Shown here: positions 21,388-21,586 of the stretch, piece by piece | How positions within the stretch are numbered: position 1 is the first letter of the stretch | Layout: each line of letters starts with the position of its first letter | Origin: a virus | Strand: one strand, 5' to 3' | Virus record (IMG/VR): IMGVR_UViG_3300031518_000007 | Location: 1 to 29,641 of that record | DNA length: 29,641 nt | The notes under the pieces: generated by a model | The model's input: the letters and a program-made list of their open reading frames with translations, nothing else | Databases searched by the model: none | Told to the model about the DNA's origin: nothing | Made by a program: the position numbers and the translations under genes

Positions 21388-21586
21388 AAATCAGAACTCT
21401 TTGGCGACTGATCACCGCCAAAGGGATCGTTTGGATAACCAAACGGTCGTCTCGGAGGTGGGACAACGTTCTGATTAGGGTCAGGTATTGACCCGTAAAG
21501 TCCTTGTAGTTTATCGGGCCAGAACAGCTTGATCGGGCTGGCCTCCGGTTGAGCAGGAGCGAGTTCAATTCTCGCCAAGGACTTTA
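21388..21586 (+). ncRNA. Structured RNA of unknown family: cloverleaf plus tRNA-like module
   Basis: The first module is a four-way junction. P1 is 9 bp (21389-21397 with 21468-21476). P2 is 8 bp (21399-21406 with 21416-21423) with a 9-nt loop. P3 is 10 bp (21425-21434 with 21439-21448) with loop ATAA. P4 is 5 bp (21449-21453 with 21460-21464) with loop GGAGGT. A separate 6-bp hairpin (21478-21483 with 21489-21494) follows, then an 11-bp stem closing a tRNA-like domain (21496-21586). A perfect promoter places the 5' end on P1. The GC content is higher than the surroundings. T4 also encodes stable RNAs of unknown function (C and D) beside its tRNAs. It could instead be a structured leader of the gene at 21626. 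Confidence 0.85.
21496..21586 (+). other. tRNA-like module within the structured RNA
   Basis: An 11-bp closing stem (21496-21506 with 21576-21586) contains a 7-bp acceptor-like part. The D-arm is GTTT/GAAC (21509-21512 with 21522-21525) with a GG-containing loop, and the T-arm is canonical (GCGAG/CTCGC with loop TTCAATT, 21559-21575) and abuts the acceptor directly. In place of an anticodon arm there is a 10-bp helix with several G-U pairs (21527-21536 with 21545-21554) and an 8-nt loop. That loop (TGGCC at 21539-21543) is complementary to the D-loop (GGCCA at 21517-21521), so a kissing contact is possible. No CCA is encoded and no G3-U70 pair is present. Confidence 0.8.

Follow-up and report, generated by a model that had tools for sequence, protein, structure and literature searches.

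The stable RNAs C and D of phage T4 have been known since the 1970s without an assigned function (excerpts of PMC4933390 and PMC9697503). In PMC9697503, RNAC and RNAD are late RNAs whose function is unknown, and the excerpt of PMC4933390 presents the band C and D RNAs as the sole examples from virulent phages, left without a function. Two abundant late small RNAs are reported for the Pseudomonas phage PAK_P3, one of them located between two tRNAs (PMC4933390, excerpt). Symmetric palindromic kissing loops are present in the OLE and GOLLD complexes, and the palindromes of OLE loop L9.3 are GGCC, GAUC and AGCU (PMC12286853, excerpt).

The T4 genes are arranged in the order tRNA-Arg, RNA D (119 nt), RNA C (139 nt), and an alignment gives UCU as the anticodon of this tRNA-Arg. 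A tRNA-Arg(UCU) also lies directly 5' of RNA D in RB14 and ABTNLsp5, and a tRNA-Arg likewise in JS98. However, this linkage is not universal, since an annotated coding sequence is found just 5' of RNA D in T2, G4507 and F2. RNA C adjoins other tRNAs in several genera. We aligned RNA C from six of 718 matching records, picked for divergence; two further diverged records were left out because their 5' halves could not be aligned. In this six-sequence alignment, which spans Tevenvirinae genera, RNA C forms a cloverleaf whose closing stem pairs the 5' end with the 3' end; its other arms are a long one, one of 10 bp and a T arm of 5 bp. Both sides change in twelve of its 49 pairs, a number reached by none of 500 shuffles, and two of the seven pairs of the closing stem form in just one of the six sequences. 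An acceptor stem built from an internal strand was unsupported by the alignment, and the pairing of the 5' and 3' ends was used instead. For RNA D, the model was derived from eight of 704 records; the consensus fold of these eight relatives contains no four-way junction cloverleaf, and the T4 RNA D sequence folds barely better than its shuffles (z −0.83). RNA C corresponds to positions 1409-1547 of the T4 locus (L121), with relatives in L211-L214 and L218, and an RNA annotation is missing in most of the matching records listed. Part of the RNA C stretch is annotated as tRNA-Lys(ttt) in vB_EcoM_G4507 (L220, 365-458), and some other records annotate hypothetical proteins over RNA C or D.

Locus and predicted transcript

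The DNA analysed here is a virus record of 29,641 bases with T4-like replication genes, taken at its full length (the window, whose numbering is used below). The best matches of the DNA polymerase encoded in the window are those of Synechococcus and Pelagibacter T4-like phages (~45% identity), and the record appears to belong to a virus of bacteria carrying a small structured RNA gene. A non-coding gap of 412 nt separates the ORF ending at 21213 from the ORF starting at 21626; it is the largest gap of the window, the runner-up having 132 nt. It contains, in this order, a tRNA-Arg(UCU), a sigma-70 promoter, a predicted four-way junction (M1), a hairpin and a tRNA-like element (M2). The GC content of M1 and M2 is 0.50 versus 0.32 window-wide. 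The features of the gap are the following:

21266..21342, plus strand: tRNA-Arg, anticodon UCU, CCA encoded, directly upstream of the promoter
21353..21381, plus strand: sigma-70 promoter TTGACA-17-TATAAT, 12/12 consensus positions
21389..21476, plus strand: M1, predicted four-way junction RNA with helices of 9, 9 (8 plus a G-U), 10 and 5 bp
21389-21397/21468-21476, plus strand: P1 of M1, 9 bp, predicted fold
21398-21406/21416-21424, plus strand: P2 of M1, 8 bp plus one G-U, predicted fold
21407..21415, plus strand: nine-nucleotide P2 loop ACUGAUCAC, holding the palindrome UGAUCA (21409-21414)
21425-21434/21439-21448, plus strand: P3 of M1, 10 bp, predicted fold
21449-21453/21460-21464, plus strand: P4 of M1, 5 bp, predicted fold
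21454..21459, plus strand: P4 loop GGAGGU, complementary to the anti-Shine-Dalgarno sequence
21478..21494, plus strand: 6-bp hairpin GGGTCA-GGTAT-TGACCC between M1 and M2, predicted at −8.3 kcal/mol
21500..21583, plus strand: M2, tRNA-like element, from an Rfam tRNA match and its fold
21583..21590, plus strand: TTTATTTT past the 10-bp acceptor stem of M2, plausible terminator or 3' end

The motif TTGACA-N15..19-TATAAT occurs once in the window, and 10 of 100 shuffles contained at least one. As the −10 element ends at 21381, the start is expected near 21388, one base before P1, which is where a sequence-only reading had placed it. That reading also proposed a dedicated transcript, for which the consensus promoter is the one line of support. 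The tRNA-Arg has a separate promoter-like site (21196-21225, 10/12 consensus). On the other side, TTTATTTT is a plausible 3' end or terminator of the transcript; a terminator scan requiring loops of 3-8 nt did not report this site. We infer that 21388-21594 forms one unit of ~207 nt.

Immediately downstream, the ribosome site of ORF 21626-22216 is masked by an inverted repeat at 21594-21628 (ATGTTCTCC...GGAGAACAT); the loop of this repeat contains CATAAATA (21602), which resembles a T4-type late promoter. This arrangement presumably parallels that of T4 gene e: a transcript reading through early would not be translated, and late transcription starting within the hairpin would leave the ribosome site accessible. 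Just further downstream, two tandem paralogous ORFs (22254-22676 and 22690-23088) have no Pfam or PHROG match, and a search for viral relatives of the second one found none. Elsewhere in the window, an ORF for a SegE-type GIY-YIG endonuclease (10533-11036, PF19835) overlaps the end of the preceding ORF.

Folding of the two domains

All four M1 helices of the sequence-only reading (9, 8, 10 and 5 bp) were recovered, and they comprise 33 pairs in 88 nt with junction linkers of 0/0/0/3 unpaired bases. Folding 21388-21476 gives a minimum free energy of −42.6 kcal/mol, versus −22.0 ± 3.4 for shuffled sequences (z −6.15), and none of 200 dinucleotide shuffles matched it; the stretch 21380-21480 gave −43.3 kcal/mol (z −6.13). 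Within the 207-nt transcript, the pairs of M1 have a mean probability of 0.98 (minimum 0.69), and the predicted structure is the same at 15 through 50 °C. A scan of the window for compact four-way junctions returned M1 and three matches on or overlapping the tRNA-Arg. The same scan of eight order-1 Markov-shuffled windows also returned four matches, the best at −27.4 kcal/mol, though with 33 pairs. The minus strand at M1 folds strongly too (−37.3 kcal/mol, z −6.76). Three things favour the plus strand: the promoter, the tRNAs encoded next to M1 on that strand, and three G-U pairs of M1, which would be A-C on the opposite strand.

As had been proposed, M1 is not a tRNA: 21388-21476 has no match to RF00005 (E up to 10), and ARAGORN found none. 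Nor does it match any Rfam family, in agreement with the sequence-only reading, which recognised no known family in it; in the Rfam search of the stretch, which included GOLLD, ROOL and other curated families, tRNA alone reached its gathering score. No tmRNA call with a tag peptide was obtained for the M1/M2 stretch. A predicted tmRNA gene was observed on a phage contig (L065, 7664-8090). On yet another phage contig (L059, 1271-1362), a four-way fold consists of hairpins resembling terminators where a gene ends. It overlaps that gene end and was dropped as a second M1-like case, and it indicates that four-way folds are not always RNA genes.

The sequence-only reading had joined M1 to an adjacent module in a compact RNA of about 200 nt beside a tRNA. 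This outline stands, but the module is itself a tRNA-like gene, which that reading missed: M2 scores 42.1 bits against RF00005 (gathering score 29) in a search of 441 nt. It is absent from a whole-window Rfam gathering search run with fast filters. M2 has a D arm, a normal T arm (21559-21575, GCGAG-TTCAATT-CTCGC) and a 7-bp acceptor stem that A-U pairs extend to 10 bp (21497-21506/21576-21585), leading into TTTATTTT. Its third arm consists of 10 continuous bp (21527-21536/21545-21554) with an 8-nt loop; counting a G-U makes this 11 pairs and a loop of 6 nt. A 7-nt loop with a readable anticodon is absent, and ARAGORN reports tRNA-??? with a two-letter anticodon. CCA is not encoded, whereas the neighbouring tRNA-Arg has it. 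Among 205 loci, a third arm of at least 9 pairs gave four matches, namely the window and three overlapping copies of the same stretch; the next best had 8 pairs and was an ordinary tRNA-Glu in two overlapping loci. An alternative fold of M2 as one long hairpin is 2 kcal/mol better (−35.2 versus −33.2), a figure that leaves tertiary contacts aside. Two other readings of M2 were rejected. In a class II tRNA with a long variable arm, the anticodon stem would reuse a D-stem base, and the 10-bp arm was preferred; for an archaeal-type spliced tRNA, no bulge-helix-bulge was seen in M2, and the promoter is bacterial.

Two loops of M1 drew our attention. The UGAUCA palindrome of the P2 loop could, judging from its sequence, be a kissing-loop dimer site; a 6-nt palindrome is present in 6.1% of random 9-mers. 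GGAGGU is complementary to the anti-Shine-Dalgarno sequence of 16S rRNA, and the P4 loop could bind it in this way. GGAGGT occurs three times on the plus strand of the window, the P4 loop included. No ATG, GTG or TTG lies at a usable distance 3' of GGAGGU in the sequence, so it is unlike an ordinary ribosome site. Both loops were spotted post hoc, with chance rates that are not negligible. One may imagine that this phage RNA represents a new class: its rigid junction would show GGAGGU to the 30S subunit, UGAUCA would mediate kissing-loop dimers and the tail would be tRNA-like, so that the molecule, a ribosome decoy with a non-decoding tRNA attached, would withdraw host ribosomes or tRNA enzymes at an early stage of infection. 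We regard this elaborate version as a long shot.

Relatives and competing explanations

Searches for relatives covered several collections. In phages and plasmids, blastn gave only chance-level matches (E at least 0.3). Exact patterns found nothing in viral contigs in a first search; 15-mers later gave 70 and 11 stretches, i.e. 81 loci, among which the best junction-model score had an E of 0.29 with one hairpin matched. An 18-mer found six stretches in genome contigs, about the chance expectation. A covariance model of the junction, built from the single sequence, matched its own record alone among 45 virus records and none of the 44 others; over 15 named phages, in a run without a positive control, it gave no match. 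Neighbouring proteins used as anchors yielded no relatives either. With the gp41-like helicase as anchor, 80 loci were kept of 591: one contig is identical (L041) and the others are at most 50% identical. L041 is a second contig of the same phage and ends before the place of M1 and M2, which are thus seen on one contig. In five of the 80 helicase loci, the gaps 3' of tRNA-Arg(UCU) hold long open stretches, read by eye as coding, with no such RNAs. M1 may be termed a novel family only in the sense that it has no match in the phages and plasmids, viral and genome contigs and virus records searched.

The interpretation that we favour, and hold to be probable with moderate confidence, is that 21388-21594 (~207 nt) is a T4-like phage's gene for a structured non-coding RNA transcribed on its own, with the four-way junction M1 as the 5' domain, the tRNA-like M2 as the 3' domain and the short hairpin between them. 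This is suggested by the strength and rarity of the fold, the exact placement of a perfect promoter, the size of the gap and its GC content, and by the tRNA score that M2 attains despite its continuous helix. The same gene order in T4 also argues for it, as do the precedents of T4 RNAs C and D, which are real late RNAs, and of PAK_P3 sRNA2, located between phage tRNAs (excerpts of PMC9697503 and PMC4933390). The lack of a homologue, the single contig, the folding of the minus strand, the competing hairpin of M2 and the L059 fold weaken it. In such a gene, the host sigma-70 polymerase, whose promoter sequence is observed, would start near 21388. M1, as predicted, would fold co-transcriptionally into a stable cloverleaf and block decay from the 5' end. 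Host tRNA-processing enzymes would recognise the acceptor/T-arm end of M2, and RNase P would cut before G21500, giving M1 plus the hairpin (~110 nt) and a tRNA-like RNA unable to decode; alternatively, the whole molecule would remain intact. The product might then act on translation or on the tRNA machinery; the role of a mimic or decoy seems most plausible for it, more so than that of a messenger or decoding tRNA.

Other explanations share part of this evidence. M1 might do no more than stabilise an odd tRNA transcript as its 5' leader, removed by RNase P and without a function of its own, M2 being the product, perhaps after further maturation. M2 indeed matches a tRNA well except in its anticodon arm and is predicted to share one transcript with M1, but it lacks the anticodon loop and CCA that the neighbouring tRNA-Arg has, a leader would not need a junction of 33 pairs, and the GGAGGU loop would be left unexplained; we consider this unlikely, although it carries some weight. 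Phage tRNAs frequently decay, and M2 could be such a decaying tRNA next to chance inverted repeats, with nothing functional in the stretch, which would fit with the lack of relatives among the phages, plasmids, and viral and genome contigs searched. Chance repeats would nevertheless have to reach a z of about −6 and fall exactly after a 12/12 promoter, and M2 has intact acceptor, D and T arms and a perfectly paired extra arm not expected of decay. This makes decay improbable in our opinion.

The stretch could also act in cis, as a leader controlling ORF 21626-22216, which is on the same strand ~32 nt past the predicted end and has its ribosome site within a hairpin. However, the U-rich end after M2 and this hairpin would each silence translation of a read-through transcript, and CATAAATA offers a late-promoter-like site inside the hairpin, so that a cis-acting role seems highly improbable. 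Finally, all arms of M1 are inverted repeats and each of the two strands folds, as would be expected if M1 worked as DNA (a cruciform, recombination or replication site) and not as RNA. The three G-U pairs would be mismatches in a DNA cruciform, and the promoter and tRNA setting point to RNA as well; we find the DNA element barely credible.

Comparison with known phage RNAs

Judged by its position and design, the M1-M2 unit, a predicted RNA gene, probably encodes a small stable phage RNA of the same kind as T4 RNAs C and D, and it may work as they do; in the comparisons made, its sequence showed no relation to theirs. The likeness to these RNAs that had been drawn from the sequence holds for position, i.e. 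a tRNA-Arg(UCU) followed by two non-tRNA RNAs, and not for kinship. M1 and M2 have no significant sequence similarity to T4 RNAs C and D. The RNA C model finds T4 at 160 bits and TG1 at 148 (both training sequences) and leaves this record unmatched, M2 scoring 9.8 bits versus 11.3 for the ordinary tRNA-Arg beside it; the score of M1 with the RNA D model is 0.8 bits. With both models at background, membership of either family is not supported.

Like M1, RNA D (species 2, band D) is not a tRNA, is of similar length and comes directly 3' of tRNA-Arg(UCU); unlike M1, it has a consensus fold other than a four-way junction. RNA C (species 1, band C; ~140 nt) also lies beside tRNA-Arg(UCU), the genes being arranged tRNA, RNA D, RNA C. 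Its third arm has 10 bp and its T arm 5 bp and a TTCGAAT-type loop; M2 shares the lengths of these two arms, and neither M2 nor RNA C of T4 has an encoded CCA. However, a long arm takes the place of the D arm of M2, and RNA C is a late RNA in T4 (PMC9697503, excerpt), whereas this locus has a sigma-70 promoter. The helix lengths are 9, 9, 10 and 5 in M1, 7, 4, 10 and 5 in M2, and 7, long, 10 and 5 in RNA C; the common pattern of a third helix of 10 and a fourth of 5 comes from three molecules and is a remark, not a test.

Among other systems, PAK_P3 sRNA2 is a phage RNA of ~100 nt between phage tRNAs, likened to this locus by position alone (PMC4933390, excerpt). GOLLD and ROOL are structured phage RNAs, often near tRNA islands and with symmetric kissing loops (PMC12286853, excerpt), but they are hundreds of nucleotides long, and M1 and M2 have no Rfam match to either. 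The literature covered (titles, abstract openings and part of PMC11143913) describes no four-way-junction RNA of the M1 kind. In this T4-like phage, the place after tRNA-Arg(UCU) that RNAs D and C occupy in T4 is taken by a predicted non-tRNA RNA unrelated to them and a predicted tRNA-like one that lacks an anticodon, which suggests a recurring role for such RNAs. The M1-M2 RNA would provide a compact, strongly folded and easily transcribed molecule for testing that role.
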